Shown here: piece by piece, positions 14,563-35,292 of the stretch
How the letters are laid out: each line of letters begins with the position of its first letter
Numbering within the stretch: position 1 is the first letter of the stretch
Assembly (NCBI GenBank): GCA_016932995.1
Contig: JAFGBU010000010.1
Coordinates: forward strand, 124,001-188,000
Length of the DNA stretch: 64,000 nt
Origin: Desulfovibrionaceae bacterium
GTDB taxonomy: Bacteria; Desulfobacterota; Desulfovibrionia; Desulfovibrionales; Desulfovibrionaceae
Reading direction: 5' to 3'
Notes under the pieces: model-generated
What the model was told of the DNA's origin: nothing
The model's database searches: none
What the model saw: only the letters and a program-made list of their open reading frames with translations
Translations under genes and position numbers: made by a program

Positions 14563-15420
14563 CTAGCCCTGCGCCTTGGATTTTTCACGGCCCAATCGGC
14601 CGTAGTTGGTGAGCTCGGCCCCCAGGTCCCTTAAGACCCCGGTCCAGGCCGGGTCCGACAAGAGCCCGTACTCGTCCGCCCACTGGCCGGACACGCGCAT
14701 GGGCCCGAACTCCGGGGGCAGGGGCGGGTCTCCGGGCTGGGCGAGCCCCGGATGGCAGACCACCTCGATCAGCCCGGGCCTGTGGCGTTCAATATACCGC
14801 CTGAAGGCCCCGGGCAAGAGCGCCCGGCCCTGGTCGGCCACGCCCCAGACCAGATCGGGCCAGCCGACCCCGGGCGTGGGGCGCTGAAACAGGGCGCAGG
14901 CGGACAAGAACTTGGCCCTGATCCCGCCCAGGTCGAGCCGCAACAGCGGGCTGCGCTCCCTGGGCCTGCGCACCCATTTGATCCCGAAGCGCTTGGCCGT
15001 CCTGCAGGCCGCGGACATGAGCCCGGGCCAGGCGTGGACGTGCTTCTCGCTGTCGCAGTGCGTCGGCCTGACCCCGAGGTCCACGATCCTTTGGATCTGC
15101 CTGGACCACTCGCGCTCCACCTGGCCCATGTCCACCCTGCCGAGCACATATCGCGCAAGCAGCTTGGCGTAGCCGCCCAGAAACAGGCCGTCCGGCCCGA
15201 CCAGGCTGGAGACCTCGGCCGGGGGGCCCAGGGGCCTGCCCCTTAAGATGTTCAGGTGCGCGCCGAGACCCACCCCCTGGACCCGGGCCGCGGCCTCCAG
15301 GTCCGGGCCGTTGGCCAGCAGGCTGGACGAGGTGAGCACCCCTGATCCGGCCAGGGCCTCGACGGCCCGGCGCACGGCCGGGTGCAGGCCCAGGTCGTCC
15401 GCGTTGACAACCACAAACAT
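14563..15420 (-). CDS. YdjC/ChbG-family carbohydrate deacetylase
   Basis: The 285-residue protein shows the family landmarks VVNADDLGLHPAV at the N-terminus, LTSSSLLANGPD, GLGAHLNILRGRPL, THCDSEKHVHAWPG and IEVVCHPG. The aspartate and histidines in these motifs bind the metal. YdjC proteins remove N-acetyl groups from diacetylchitobiose, and HpnK relatives act on hopanoid-linked sugars. Association with a polyprenyl-phosphate glycosyltransferase 2 bases downstream suggests deacetylation of a lipid-linked N-acetyl sugar, which is inference. Confidence 0.85.
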   Translation of the reverse strand: MFVVVNADDLGLHPAVRRAVEALAGSGVLTSSSLLANGPDLEAAARVQGVGLGAHLNILRGRPLGPPAEVSSLVGPDGLFLGGYAKLLARYVLGRVDMGQVEREWSRQIQRIVDLGVRPTHCDSEKHVHAWPGLMSAACRTAKRFGIKWVRRPRERSPLLRLDLGGIRAKFLSACALFQRPTPGVGWPDLVWGVADQGRALLPGAFRRYIERHRPGLIEVVCHPGLAQPGDPPLPPEFGPMRVSGQWADEYGLLSDPAWTGVLRDLGAELTNYGRLGREKSKAQG

Positions 15421-30163: not shown

Positions 30164-31362
30164 ATGCGCCAGGCGACTTCGGTCTTGGGCAGCTCGGGCC
30201 ACTGCTCGATGCGGCCGGCCGCGTCCGCGACCACCACCTTGTTGGTCATGGTCCCGAAGCCGCTGCCCTTGACGTTGATGTAGTTGCCGACAATGAGGTC
30301 CAGGTTCTTGGCCTTGAGCTTGGTCTTCAGCGAGGCGTTCAGGGACGAGGTCTCGGCCGCAAACCCGATGAGCCTCTGGCCTGGCCTTTTGCTTGCCCCG
30401 AGATCAAGGAGGATGTCCGGGTTGGGCAGAAACTCGATGCTCAGCCCGGCCTGGGCCTCCTTTTTCTTGAACTTCTTGCGGCCAAAGGGTTTGGGCCTGA
30501 AGTCCGCGACCGCCGCGCACATGCAGGCCGCGTCCATGTCCGGCCAGAGGTCGCCGACCGCCTCGAGCATCTCCCGGGCCGAGGCCACGCGCACGACCTT
30601 CAGGCCCTCGGGGAGCCGGGTGTCCACCGGTCCGGCCACGGCCACGACCTCCGCGCCCCTGAGCCAGGCGGCCAGGGCCAGGCAGGTCCCCATGATCCCG
30701 GTCGAGGGGTTGGACCAGAACCGGGCCGGGTCCCAGTGCTCCCTGGTCGGGCCCAGGGACACGAGTATCTTCTTTCCGGCCAGGTCGTTGGGCGAAAGGG
30801 CCCTGAGCACCGCGGCGTGGATGTCAAAGACCTCGGCCAGCCGGCCGGCGCCCTTGTCCCCGCAGGCGACCCCGCCGCAGGCCGGGCCCACGCCGATGAA
30901 GCCGCGGCCAAGCAACTTGGCCCAGTTCTCCCGGGTCGCGGGGTTCTCCCACATGGCCGGGTTCATGGCCGGGGCCACGATCTTGGGCCCTGAAAAGGCC
31001 AAGGCCTGGCAGGAGAGCATGTCGTCGGCCAGGCCCGCGGCCAGCTTGGCGATGATGTCGGCCGTGGCCGGGGCCACGACCAGGACGTCCGCGTTTTTGC
31101 CCGGCTCCAGGTGGCCGAGCCGGTCCGGGGAATCGAACATCCCGGTGTACACGGGATCAGCGCCCAGGGCCTCGAACAAGAGCGCGGACAAGAACCTCTG
31201 GCAGCCGCGGGTCAGGGTGGCCGAGACCGCGCAGTTGTTCTCAAGCAGGCGTCTCAGCAGGTCCAGGGCCCGGTAGGCGGCCACGCTGCCCGTGACGCCC
31301 AGATGGACCCGCTTGCCGAGATAGCCCGTGAAGCAGAGGTTGTCCGCCCTGTCCCGGGACAT
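30139..31362 (-). CDS. coaBC: CoaBC, phosphopantothenoylcysteine synthetase/decarboxylase
   Basis: This bifunctional coenzyme A enzyme joins cysteine to 4'-phosphopantothenate using CTP and then decarboxylates the product. The flavin-binding CoaC half has GVTGSVAAYRALDLLR, APAMNPAMWENPAT and the active-site region GGVACGDKGAGRLAE. The CoaB half has SLGPTREHWDPARFWSNPSTGIMG, VAGPVDTRLP, a KFKKKE lysine loop and IGFAAET. At 407 residues its length is normal. It begins with ATG overlapping the lipoprotein stop (TAATG), so it is translationally coupled to it. Confidence 0.95.
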   Translation of the reverse strand: MSRDRADNLCFTGYLGKRVHLGVTGSVAAYRALDLLRRLLENNCAVSATLTRGCQRFLSALLFEALGADPVYTGMFDSPDRLGHLEPGKNADVLVVAPATADIIAKLAAGLADDMLSCQALAFSGPKIVAPAMNPAMWENPATRENWAKLLGRGFIGVGPACGGVACGDKGAGRLAEVFDIHAAVLRALSPNDLAGKKILVSLGPTREHWDPARFWSNPSTGIMGTCLALAAWLRGAEVVAVAGPVDTRLPEGLKVVRVASAREMLEAVGDLWPDMDAACMCAAVADFRPKPFGRKKFKKKEAQAGLSIEFLPNPDILLDLGASKRPGQRLIGFAAETSSLNASLKTKLKAKNLDLIVGNYINVKGSGFGTMTNKVVVADAAGRIEQWPELPKTEVAWRIWDLLLQL

Positions 31363-31868
31363 TACTTGGGCAGGTCCTGTTCGGCAACGCCCGAGCGGCG
31401 CTTGCCGCTTGCCGCAGCGCCGTTTTCCCTGGCCTCGACCGCAAACACCCTGAGCTTGACCTTGAACCCGTCCACGATCTGCACCATGCAGCTCTTGTTG
31501 AACTTCTCGAAGATGAGCACCGACTTCTCGCCCTTGAGCGCGGCCACGGCCTGCCAGTTGTCCTTGGGCATGTTGTTCGTGAAGAAGTTGATCACGTCGG
31601 TGACCACCACGCGGCCCTCAAAGACCTCGAGGCTCACCCGGAACTTCTTGGTGTCCATGGTGTAGCTCTCGTCGTCGACCCTGGCCATCTCCTTGGGGAT
31701 GAGGATGTCGTCGAACTCGTAGTAGAAGTTCGGGGCGTCATAGGTCGCCTGGACCGCCTGGTCGCCGCCCTGGGGGGTGTCCTTGGCCGCGCCGGTGCCC
31801 TTCCCGGCGCAGGAAGCAAGGAGCGTCATCAAAACAACCATGATCAGCGCGTGAAGAGAAATTCGCAT
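31362..31868 (-). CDS. small lipoprotein of unknown function
   Basis: The 168-residue protein has a lipoprotein signal MRISLHALIMVVLMTLLASC with the lipobox cysteine at about 20. A disordered Gly/Thr linker and a globular domain follow (FYYEFDDILIPKEM, VFEGRVVVTDVINFFTNNMPKDNW, VLIFEKFNKSCMVQI). That domain resembles small periplasmic DUF-type beta-alpha proteins. The ATG at 31868 follows GGAGGAGGG, a strong site. It is the first gene of the lipoprotein-coaBC-unknown operon. Confidence 0.82.
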   Translation of the reverse strand: MRISLHALIMVVLMTLLASCAGKGTGAAKDTPQGGDQAVQATYDAPNFYYEFDDILIPKEMARVDDESYTMDTKKFRVSLEVFEGRVVVTDVINFFTNNMPKDNWQAVAALKGEKSVLIFEKFNKSCMVQIVDGFKVKLRVFAVEARENGAAASGKRRSGVAEQDLPK

Positions 31869-31987
31869 GCCCTCCTCCTCAAGGAATCGTTGATGTCCGG
31901 CGCCTAAGCGCCCATGCAGCTCTCCGGGCTTATATATCAGGACCGGCCCAAAGCTCAAAGCCCGGACGCCCTGCCGGGGCAGGAGGT

Positions 31988-32629
31988 CTAGCGGCCGCCC
32001 AGGCTCTCCAGCTTGTGCTTCAGGGTCTGATCCAGGTCCTTGCGCTCCCTGCGCAGCCTCTGCAGCTCCTCCTCCAACTGCCTTATCCTCTCCGGATCGG
32101 CCGGGACAGGGGGCAAAAGGGGCTCCTCGCCGGGCCGGGAGCGGACATCCCGGCTCGGGGCCGGGGACGCGGCCCCAGGCGCAGCGGCGCGGCTCCTCCT
32201 GAACTCCTTCTGGCTCCTGGCCAGGAGCACGAAGGCCTTCTTGAGCTTGCGGATCTCCTCGCGCAGGTCCTCGACCTGGCGCTTCTGGTCCGCCACGAGC
32301 TCAAGGTGGCAGGCCAGGCGCTCCAGGACCTGGGGCAGGACTGCCCCCTGGACCGCAGGGACGGCAAGCCCGCCGGGTCCCGGGCCCGGGACGTCGATTA
32401 CCCGGGGCAGGTCCTTGGCCAGGGTCGCGGCTATCTCCGGGGTCAGCAGGCCGTCCCGGTACAGGCCGAAGACCCGCCTGAAGACCTCGACGCTGGGCAG
32501 GGGGTATCTGGTGGTCCGGCCGACCTTTTTCCCGCCCAGAAACTCCCTGAACAGGGACGCGTAGCGTCTGGCCGTGGGCGCGGGTATCCCCGTGGTCCTG
32601 GCTATCTCGGCAACCGACAACCATTCCAT
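31988..32629 (-). CDS. MerR-type HTH regulator with coiled-coil tail
   Basis: The 213-residue protein starts MEWLSVAEIARTTGIPAPTARRYASLFREFL, a MerR-family helix-turn-helix. It continues with a wing-like TTRYPLPSVEVFRRVFGLYRDG and long charged coiled coils (about residues 115-150 and 175-213) on either side of a proline-rich linker. No metal-binding cysteines are seen in the tail. It is divergent from queA. The predicted -10 on the minus strand is only 8 bases from this ATG, so the mRNA may lack a leader. An in-frame GTG at 32647 is an alternative start. Confidence 0.78.
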   Translation of the reverse strand: MEWLSVAEIARTTGIPAPTARRYASLFREFLGGKKVGRTTRYPLPSVEVFRRVFGLYRDGLLTPEIAATLAKDLPRVIDVPGPGPGGLAVPAVQGAVLPQVLERLACHLELVADQKRQVEDLREEIRKLKKAFVLLARSQKEFRRSRAAAPGAASPAPSRDVRSRPGEEPLLPPVPADPERIRQLEEELQRLRRERKDLDQTLKHKLESLGGR

Positions 32630-32637
32630 GCCTTGGG

Positions 32638-32666
32638 TTAGTATCACGATATCACTGCAAATCAAA
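32638..32666 (-). promoter_or_regulatory. predicted promoter of the MerR-type gene
   Basis: Minus-strand TTTGAT (32666-32661) and TACTAA (32643-32638) are separated by 17 bases. The spacer contains TATCACGATATCAC (plus strand), with overlapping short inverted repeats that could bind the regulator itself. Confidence 0.5.
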
Positions 32667-32753
32667 CCATTTGCACCGGCCGGGCACGCCGCATGCAACA
32701 TGCTGCAATGATTAAACAAACCATCGAGGGACAAGGCCCGAAACAGGCCCGTG

Positions 32754-32782
32754 TTGCCCTGGCCCGGGCCAGGGCGTATACA
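32754..32782 (+). promoter_or_regulatory. predicted promoter of queA
   Basis: TTGCCC (32754-32759) and TATACA (32777-32782) are separated by 17 bases. The queA ATG at 32792 starts only 9 bases after the -10 element. Confidence 0.55.
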
Positions 32783-32791
32783 TTGCCTCCC

Positions 32792-33901
32792 ATGCAGCCC
32801 CAGGACAAGGACCCGCGGCCGGACGCGGACGACTTCAGGCTCGAGAGCTACCGCTACCGCCTGCCCGGCCGAAGCATAGCCCAGCGCCCGGCCCAAGCCA
32901 GGGACCGCTCAAGGCTCATGGTCCTGGACCGGGCGGCGCGGGCCACGCGCATCAGGACCTTCCCGGACCTGGTCGAAGAGCTCCCCGAGAACTGCCTGGT
33001 GGTGGCCAACAACTCCCGGGTCGTGCCGGCAAGGCTGAGCGGCCGCAAGCCGAGCGGCGGCCGGATCGAGTTCCTGCTGCTCACGCCCCTGCCGCTCCTG
33101 GAGATCGAAAAAACCGCCCAGGGCCGCAGCCGGGCCGTGGCCCAGGGGCTGTTGCGGGCCTCCAAGGCCCCGGGCCCGGGCCTGCGCCTGGACTTCGGCC
33201 CGGACCTGTCGGTCACGGTCCGTGAGCGCCACGACTTCGGCCGCTGCCAGGTGGACCTGGAGTGGTCCGGGGACCTGGGCTCGATCCTGGAGCGCAGCGG
33301 CAGCATGCCCCTGCCGCCCTACATCCAGCGGCCGGCGGACCGCGAGGACCTGGCCCGCTACCAGACCGTGTACGCGCGCAGGGACCGGTCCGGCTCGGTG
33401 GCCGCGCCCACGGCCGGGCTGCACTTCACCGAGGACATCAAAACGCGCCTCGCCGGGCGCGGGGCCGAGTGGGTCGAGCTGACCCTGTACGTGGGCTACG
33501 GGACCTTCAGCCCGCTGCGCTGCCCGGACATCCGCGGGCACCTCATGCACGAGGAATACGTCGACATCCCGGAGCAGACCGCGGCCAAGGTGGCCCAGGC
33601 CAGGCATGAGGGCCGTCCGGTGCTCGCCGTGGGCACGACCACGGTCCGGGCCCTGGAGGGCGCGTACGCGGCCCTGGGGCGCATCAGCGGGTTTGCGGGC
33701 ATGACCAATCTGTTCATCACTCCGGGCTTCGAGTTCAAGGTCGTGGACCATGTGCTGACCAATTTCCATTTGCCAGAATCTTCGCTGGTGATTATGGTTT
33801 CGGCTCTGGCCGGCAGGAAAAACATCATGGCCGCCTATGAACAGGCCCTGGAAAACGGCTTCCGTTTCTTTTCGTACGGCGACGCCATGCTCATCCTGTA
33901 A
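32792..33901 (+). CDS. queA: QueA, S-adenosylmethionine:tRNA ribosyltransferase-isomerase
   Basis: QueA transfers the ribosyl part of S-adenosylmethionine to preQ1 in tRNA, giving epoxyqueuosine. The 369-residue protein has YRYRLPGRSIAQRPAQARDRSRL at its start, VVANNSRVVPARLSG, VAAPTAGLHFT, ELTLYVGYGTFSPLR, ITPGFEFKVVDHVLTNFHLPES and LVIMVSALAG, all strongly conserved in the family. The ATG at 32792 fits the homologous start, although no ribosome site precedes it. The gene is followed by a very GC-rich hairpin and then the ferredoxin gene. Confidence 0.95.
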   Translation: MQPQDKDPRPDADDFRLESYRYRLPGRSIAQRPAQARDRSRLMVLDRAARATRIRTFPDLVEELPENCLVVANNSRVVPARLSGRKPSGGRIEFLLLTPLPLLEIEKTAQGRSRAVAQGLLRASKAPGPGLRLDFGPDLSVTVRERHDFGRCQVDLEWSGDLGSILERSGSMPLPPYIQRPADREDLARYQTVYARRDRSGSVAAPTAGLHFTEDIKTRLAGRGAEWVELTLYVGYGTFSPLRCPDIRGHLMHEEYVDIPEQTAAKVAQARHEGRPVLAVGTTTVRALEGAYAALGRISGFAGMTNLFITPGFEFKVVDHVLTNFHLPESSLVIMVSALAGRKNIMAAYEQALENGFRFFSYGDAMLIL

Positions 33902-33904
33902 ACA

Positions 33905-33943
33905 GCCCGGGCCCGGGGCCCGTTTTCCGGGCCGGGCCCGGGC
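33905..33943 (+). terminator. GC-only hairpin after queA
   Basis: GCCCGGGCCCGG (33905-33916) pairs with CCGGGCCCGGGC (33932-33943), 3 bases after the queA stop. There is no T-tract. Termination or 3'-end protection are both possible. Confidence 0.45.
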
Positions 33944-33992
33944 AGGACCGGCCCGCTTAAGGCCGTCATATTCTCAAGTGGAGGAGGGGGAG

Positions 33993-34229
33993 ATGTCCCG
34001 AATCGTGGTTCTGGAGGACCGCTGCAAGGGTTGCCTGCTGTGCGTCGCGGCCTGTCCCGCGGGCATCATCAGACAGTCCGGGCGGTTCAACCAGAACGGC
34101 TACAAGGTGGTCGAGGTGCCGGACGAGGACAAGGACAAATGCACGGGCTGCGCCTCCTGCGCCATAACCTGCCCGGACGTGGCCATCAGGGTCTACCGGT
34201 CCAAGAAGAAGGAGGCGGCCGATGACTAG
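33993..34229 (+). CDS. 2[4Fe-4S] ferredoxin subunit of the 2-oxoacid oxidoreductase
   Basis: The 78-residue protein has two cluster motifs, CKGCLLCVAACP and CTGCASCAITCP, so it carries two [4Fe-4S] clusters. It is the delta-type electron-transfer subunit of KorDABC/VorDBAC enzymes. The ATG at 33993 follows GGAGGAGGGGGAG, an excellent ribosome site. Its end overlaps the alpha subunit start by 8 bases, so the four genes at 33993-36618 form one operon. Confidence 0.92.
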   Translation: MSRIVVLEDRCKGCLLCVAACPAGIIRQSGRFNQNGYKVVEVPDEDKDKCTGCASCAITCPDVAIRVYRSKKKEAADD

Positions 34230-35292
34230 GAAGTCGCCTGAAAAGATATTCATCAAGGGCAACGAGGCCATCGCCCGCGGGGCCATCGCCGCCGGGTGCA
34301 AGTGCTTTTTCGGCTACCCGATCACGCCCCAGAACGACATCCCGGAGTACATGTCCCAGGCCCTTGTCGAGGCCGGGGGCGAGTTCGTCCAGGCCGAGAG
34401 CGAGGTGGCCTCGGCGAACATGCTCCTGGGCGCCGGGGCCTGCGGGATCCGGGCCATGACCTCGTCCAGCAGCCCGGGCATCTCCCTGATGCAGGAGGCC
34501 ATCTCGTACATGGCCGGCAGCGAGATACCCGCGGTCATCGTGAACATGAACCGGGGCGGCCCGGGCCTCGGGGACATCGGCCCCAGCCAGGGCGACTACT
34601 TCCAGTCCACCCGCGGCGGCGGGCACGGCGACTACCGGACCCTGGTCCTGGCCCCGGCCTCCTGCCAGGAGGCCTACGACCTGATCATCAAGGCCTTTGA
34701 CCTGGCCTTCAAGTACCGCAACCCGGTCCTGATCCTGGGCGACGCCATCCTGGGGAACATGAAGGAGGCGGTCAGCCCCTGGAAGCCCGCGCCGGTGGAC
34801 CCGGCCGAGGCCGCGGACTGGCGGCTGGAGGGCGCAAAGGGCCGCGGCCCGAGGCTGCACAAGTCCCTGTACCTGCACGAGGGCGAGCTCGCGGGCCAGA
34901 ACAAGCGGCTCCAGGAAAAGTACCTGGCCATGCAGGCCGAGACCGACTTCGAGCTCTACCGGACAGAGGACGCCGACCTGGTGGTCTGCGCCTACGGGTC
35001 CATCGCCCGCATCGCCAAGAGCGCGGTGCGCAAGCTGCGCAAGGAGGGCCTCAAGGTCGGGCTCTTCCGGCCCGTGAACCTGTACCCCTTCCCGTCCGGG
35101 CCCCTGGCCGAACTGGCCGGGCAGGGCAAGCGCTTCCTGACCATCGAGCACAACCTGGGCCAGATGGTCGAGGACGTGCGCCTGAGCGTCAGGGGCCTGG
35201 CCGACTCGGAGCAGTTCAGCGTCTATCCCGGCAACCTGCCCCTGCCGGACGACTTCGAAGAGCCCATCAAAAAAGCCCTTGCGGGGAAATGA
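34222..35292 (+). CDS. vorB: 2-oxoacid:ferredoxin oxidoreductase alpha subunit (VorB-type)
   Basis: The 356-residue protein carries the pyrimidine-binding and domain II regions of the alpha subunit: FIKGNEAIARGAIAAGCKCFFGYPITPQNDIPE, AESEVASANMLLGAGACG, TSSSSPGISLMQE and MNRGGPGLGDIGPSQGDY. These match VorB-like enzymes that oxidise branched-chain 2-oxoacids (3-methyl-2-oxobutanoate) to acyl-CoA with reduction of ferredoxin. The substrate range (2-oxoisovalerate or 2-oxoglutarate) cannot be fixed from sequence alone. It overlaps the ferredoxin gene by 8 bases. Confidence 0.9.
   Translation: MTRKSPEKIFIKGNEAIARGAIAAGCKCFFGYPITPQNDIPEYMSQALVEAGGEFVQAESEVASANMLLGAGACGIRAMTSSSSPGISLMQEAISYMAGSEIPAVIVNMNRGGPGLGDIGPSQGDYFQSTRGGGHGDYRTLVLAPASCQEAYDLIIKAFDLAFKYRNPVLILGDAILGNMKEAVSPWKPAPVDPAEAADWRLEGAKGRGPRLHKSLYLHEGELAGQNKRLQEKYLAMQAETDFELYRTEDADLVVCAYGSIARIAKSAVRKLRKEGLKVGLFRPVNLYPFPSGPLAELAGQGKRFLTIEHNLGQMVEDVRLSVRGLADSEQFSVYPGNLPLPDDFEEPIKKALAGK

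Follow-up and report, generated by a model that had tools for sequence, protein, structure and literature searches.

Predicted divergent leaderless transcripts from the gap between queA and a MerR-like regulator gene in Desulfovibrionaceae

The short gap between queA and a divergently oriented MerR-like gene carries, on either side, promoter-like boxes whose distance to a conserved ATG is fixed, with no usable SD sequence, and on the MerR-like side this layout is conserved across genera. The reading that we prefer, with a probability of about 0.7, is that two divergent transcripts are made which would be leaderless or nearly so, with some leeway in the exact start. A leaderless transcript is likely for the regulator and rather probable for queA in the source genome. 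Leaderless genes are already known as a kind, and the locus is probably a conserved instance of it.

Genes, start codons and promoter boxes

The window, i.e. the whole stretch of 64,000 nt that was analysed, stems from a genome of 2.48 Mb in 49 contigs. The relevant features, with their basis in brackets, are:

31988..32629, minus strand: MerR-like HTH gene with a C-terminal coiled coil, 213 aa, ATG at 32629 (orthologs)
32630..32791, no strand: intergenic region of 162 bp with both predicted promoters (g29 comparison)
32638..32643, minus strand: predicted -10 of the MerR-like gene, TACTAA, 8 nt before the ATG (sequence; 54/73 orthologs)
32660..32665, minus strand: predicted -35 of the MerR-like gene, TTGATT, spacer 16 (sequence, orthologs)
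32754..32759, plus strand: predicted -35 of queA, TTGCCC, spacer 17 (sequence, orthologs)
32777..32782, plus strand: predicted -10 of queA, TATACA, 9 nt before the ATG (sequence, orthologs)
32792..33901, plus strand: queA coding region, tRNA preQ1(34) S-adenosylmethionine ribosyltransferase-isomerase, ATG at 32792 (family profiles)

The queA product matches its family over the whole length (NCBIfam NF001140, E 9e-123; TIGR00113, E 2.7e-102; both above cut-offs) and also Pfam PF02547. It diverges from the MerR-like gene across the 162-bp gap. The Pfam profile MerR_1 scores above cut-off in the orthologs L007 and L009 and below it in the window protein. Orthologs of the latter in named records belong to Pseudodesulfovibrio, Humidesulfovibrio and other Desulfovibrionaceae. 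The gene order fdx-queA / regulator-lipoprotein-coaBC is also found in Pseudodesulfovibrio pelocollis (the fdx and lipoprotein labels are our own reading), hence the regulator transcript may be polycistronic.

Start codons were evaluated using a gene finder based on codon usage only, without SD or promoter input. Nine genes that could be recognised in the window served as its seed; an earlier version trained on the longest ORFs, which chose antisense ORFs, was dropped. The finder selected ATG 32629 and ATG 32792, the same two starts as in the preliminary description. Moreover, the N-terminus of queA (MQP..DFRLESYRY) has a counterpart in the G023 homolog (MQP..DFRLESYRYDLP), which supports ATG 32792. 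The MerR-like orthologs align with the window protein from residue 1 and start with ATG in 73/73 counted cases. In many of them an in-frame stop lies 6-33 nt ahead of this ATG, ruling out upstream starts there; the window frame is open upstream.

By direct reading and by scan, TATACA ends 9 nt before the ATG of queA and TACTAA 8 nt before that of the MerR-like gene, exactly as first described. The 17-nt spacers originally given for both sides stand for queA only. On the other side TTGATT lies at 16 nt; a 17-nt register would read TTTGAT as -35, and the orthologs keep the 16-nt register. An extended -10 TG is located at 32645-32646. For queA an alternative -10, TACATT (32779-32784, 7 nt before the ATG, spacer 19 nt), overlaps TATACA. 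At 8 and 9 nt, the discriminators exceed the length seen most often in orthologs (6 nt). That neither gene has a usable ribosome site was borne out: queA shows no SD 4-mer near its ATG (duplex energy -3.2), and the MerR-like gene has an AAGG (duplex energy -5.4) which, at 1 nt from the ATG, is too close to serve as SD. The median over all called starts in the sample is -6.7.

Both predicted promoters match the consensus weakly (queA 8/12, MerR-like gene 7/12). A standard sigma-70 scan of 31000-34500 with a threshold of at least 9/12 reported neither of them, and several other 7-8/12 matches in the gap would lead to leaders of ~80-150 nt. Thus the window sequence alone proves little, and we rely on the comparison with orthologs and genome samples. 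The gap also holds an inverted repeat, TGCAAAT-caaacc-ATTTGCA (32656-32675), which overlaps the -35 of the regulator; this repeat was not seen by eye in the orthologs.

Conservation of the layout across orthologs

For the regulator side 77 loci of Desulfovibrionaceae were tried and 73 were placed by an N-terminal motif. L015, L125, L126 and L127, in which the motif was not matched, are left out of the counts; weaker paralogs are outside the set, and L013, an ortholog from another family, was held apart. We searched for a leaderless signature defined as TTG, 15-18 nt and TA, ending 4-10 nt before the ATG. It is present in 54/73 orthologs, whereas shuffling the same 60 nt gives an expectation of 4.1; as the genomes are related, the orthologs do not count as independent events. 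The split follows the genera: 54/54 in g1, g5, g14, g23, g24 and g29, 0/17 in g8 and 0/2 in g28. As the layout recurs in six related genera, it is probably real.

Among the 54 orthologs with signature the spacer is 16 nt in 53 and 17 nt in one, and the -10 ends 5 nt (1), 6 nt (37), 7 nt (8) or 8 nt (8) before the ATG. Letters outside the search pattern are conserved as well. In a genus-weighted profile the A and T of the -35 reach 1.85 and 1.82 bits and the extended -10 TG 2.0 and 1.35 bits, compared with 0.03-0.46 bits at the variable spacer positions 8-14; the TG is found in 53/54. An SD 4-mer is absent upstream of all 54 (0/54). A point against the leaderless reading is the strong duplex energy of the g23 regulator (-8.8).

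The two g28 orthologs without signature, L008 and L109, lack a TTGAT box and carry an SD-like GGAGG ahead of the ATG. No queA was found upstream of L008 (1200 nt searched), L109 (500 nt) and L092 (500 nt). The out-of-family regulator L013 likewise has an SD 4-mer and no queA within 1200 nt upstream. In g8 the signature is missing in 17/17 orthologs though they adjoin queA, and an SD 4-mer is found in 2/17. The g8 loci (L076-L080, L086, L088 and others) have CACGTTGATCA-like letters upstream of the regulator in place of the promoter layout, several of them show an inverted repeat TCAAACA..TGTTTGA there, and on the queA side a direct repeat, GATTNTNACCA, is seen.

A gene tree of the regulator was built from 44 full-length rows, excluding shorter loci. 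Therein g28 joins g14, and g8 is surrounded by genera that have the leaderless layout. As both clades without this layout nest inside the tree, its presence looks like the older state on the regulator side, with two losses (g8 and g28). This reading is tentative owing to the long branches (L001, L013 and L014).

On the queA side the counts are out of 70 rather than 73 because of the three loci without queA upstream. The layout is present in 14/70 orthologs, namely 1/1 in g1 (the source genome), 9/13 in g29 and 4/34 in g5. It is absent in the three g14, the one g23, the one g24 and the 17 g8 orthologs. Its distribution is thus patchy. An SD 4-mer precedes 3/3 queA genes of g14, and also two of the nine g29 genes matching the signature. 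A block ~35 nt ahead of queA is conserved in the main g5 genomes; judged by eye, it looks like a promoter that leaves a short leader. When four g29 loci are aligned, conservation is seen at both ends of the gap but not in its middle, a pattern which we take as the footprint of two predicted divergent promoters abutting both ATGs. In sum, the (near-)leaderless starts proposed earlier for both sides are upheld at sequence level by conserved promoter position, absence of SD and conserved ATG, strongly for the MerR-like gene and moderately for queA.

Proposed initiation and alternative explanations

We propose that two sigma-70-type promoters point away from each other in the gap, both sited such that transcription would start at, or ~0-4 nt from, the A of the respective ATG. 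Hence both mRNAs would lack a leader or have hardly any, and translation would begin by direct binding of ribosomes to the 5'-terminal AUG, independently of SD pairing. The use of the boxes by RNA polymerase, the exact start and initiation at the 5' AUG are the inferred steps. Consequently, the output of the regulator and, in the source genome, of queA would be set by promoter strength, with no regulation via a 5' UTR.

The evidence on the queA side also has to be read against a mixed layout, in which the regulator mRNA is leaderless and queA of the source genome is transcribed from a promoter farther upstream, with an ordinary SD-less leader. The 56/70 queA orthologs without the leaderless signature speak for it, as do the block ~35 nt upstream of queA in the main g5 genomes and the alternative 7-8/12 matches 82-149 nt upstream of queA in the window. 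However, TTGCCC-17-TATACA has the same layout as in nine g29 and four g5 orthologs, no upstream alternative was seen by eye to recur in relatives, and the ATG of queA has no SD nearby. We consider this arrangement unlikely, though worth bearing in mind. A quite improbable explanation is that the conserved block before the regulator acts as an operator (e.g. in autoregulation) that lies within a longer transcript, rather than as the promoter setting the start. Conservation does extend past the core promoter letters (ATC before TG), and the 7-bp inverted repeat at 32656-32675 of the source genome overlaps the -35. Yet the most conserved letters are the -35 and the extended -10, with a spacer of 16-17 nt and a fixed distance to the ATG. 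Moreover, no palindrome shared between genera was seen by eye, and the g29 alignment (four sequences) has no other conserved promoter-like block upstream.

Normal leaders would also result if the true starts were elsewhere, i.e. at ATG 32693 or 32708 for queA or at an upstream GTG or TTG for the regulator. Both frames are indeed open upstream in the source genome, but homologs do not match the upstream residues, relatives have stops close upstream and the regulator ATG is kept throughout its counted orthologs, such that misplaced starts appear very improbable. Among the candidates considered, a MerR-type 19-nt spacing, an operator and wrong start codons, none fits better than the leaderless reading.

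Family-wide background and relation to known systems

The signature was also evaluated in genome samples of 1.1 Mb in total (G000, the source genome, 384 kb with the window included; G028, 360 kb; G274, 360 kb), using starts called by our own simple gene finder. In the source genome alone, shifted controls gave 5-9 matches versus 7, and the signature is not separable there from ordinary promoters. Since these controls do not discriminate, SD-less and SD-led starts were compared over the three genomes. Counting ATG starts of first genes, the signature lies 4-10 nt upstream in 25/163 SD-less versus 4/214 SD-led cases (Fisher P 1.7e-6). Farther upstream, at 11-17, 18-24 and 25-31 nt, SD-less and SD-led starts of the three samples do not differ significantly. 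Shuffles of the 163 SD-less starts yield a mean of 2.7 matches and a maximum of 12. Of 345 starts in G000, 9 have a TANNNT whose end lies exactly 6 nt upstream, compared with at most 2 at the other distances between 0 and 39; no comparably clean 6-nt peak was found in G028 (2/274) or G274 (5/307).

Two-sided signatures are found in 3/106 divergent pairs (1/43, 2/27 and 0/36 in the three samples). The single case of the 43 is the window locus, and one of the two cases among the 27 is its g29 counterpart. Hence, of the rarity in the phylum that had been supposed for back-to-back leaderless starts, the two-sided part is retained: such pairs are uncommon. One-sided cases are not rare. Given the contrast of 25/163 to 4/214, single leaderless genes look ordinary in Desulfovibrionaceae. 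Zheng et al. 2011 (PMC3160421) moreover give predicted leaderless genes in 8/33 delta-proteobacterial genomes, and consistent with this, the genomes sampled here appear to contain a genuine minority of leaderless genes.

Further candidates were seen in the samples. Another divergent pair with a signature on both sides lies in G028 (L186, 10377/10491). Within the window, a gene starting at 15420 (minus strand) shows TTGCCA-17-TAGGGT, 6 nt before the ATG, and no SD 4-mer; its protein begins MFVVVNADDLGL and presumably resembles YdjC/ChbG-type deacetylases. SD-less starts with TANNNT 6-7 nt before the ATG in the source genome are L154 1981 (minus strand), L155 14267 (plus), L162 17682 (plus) and L169 17952 (plus), one of which begins like a response regulator (MQNKDIRILIVDDSPSMR).

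Divergent pairs of regulator and target with a leaderless regulator mRNA are known from lambda cI, transcribed from PRM, and Tn1721 tetR. The window pair is similar in that a predicted leaderless regulator transcript diverges from a neighbouring gene. Unlike in those systems, the partner is a tRNA-modification gene whose mRNA is also predicted to be leaderless in some genera, and queA is at most a putative target of the regulator. Resemblance to MerR-family regulators lies in the predicted N-terminal HTH, with MerR_1 above cut-off in the two orthologs named above. Classic MerR targets have stretched promoter spacers of 19-20 nt, whereas the regulator described here falls under the MerR_1 cut-off and its own promoter has a spacer of 16 nt.

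The leaderless TANNNT genes of Deinococcus-Thermus, as presented in Zheng et al. 2011 (PMC3160421) and Zhong et al. 2025 (PMC12340547), share a -10 located few nt before the ATG and the lack of an SD, and the TANNNT peak at 6 nt in the G000 sample is alike. In contrast to the genes described there, the window locus keeps a recognisable -35, plus the extended -10 TG for the regulator, and is two-sided; the class as a whole is a minority here, with 25 of the 163 SD-less first-gene ATG starts.

Among the papers listed in literature searches (12 of 642 in one of them), there was no leaderless-mRNA study of sulfate-reducing bacteria and, by title, none on Desulfovibrio transcription starts. It is conceivable, if a long shot, that a bidirectional leaderless module in several Desulfovibrionaceae genera puts both the tRNA-queuosine gene and a regulator restricted to this family under SD-independent initiation, such that both proteins would still be made when 30S/SD initiation falls and the regulator would tune tRNA modification to the state of translation. 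What is useful is the conserved instance together with the signal at family level, according to which some SD-less genes of Desulfovibrionaceae may be leaderless. With this locus, leaderless expression in sulfate-reducing bacteria could be examined on a concrete and conserved example. Because the same gene pair is apparently leaderless or leadered in related genera, switching of the initiation mode may be studied at one single locus.
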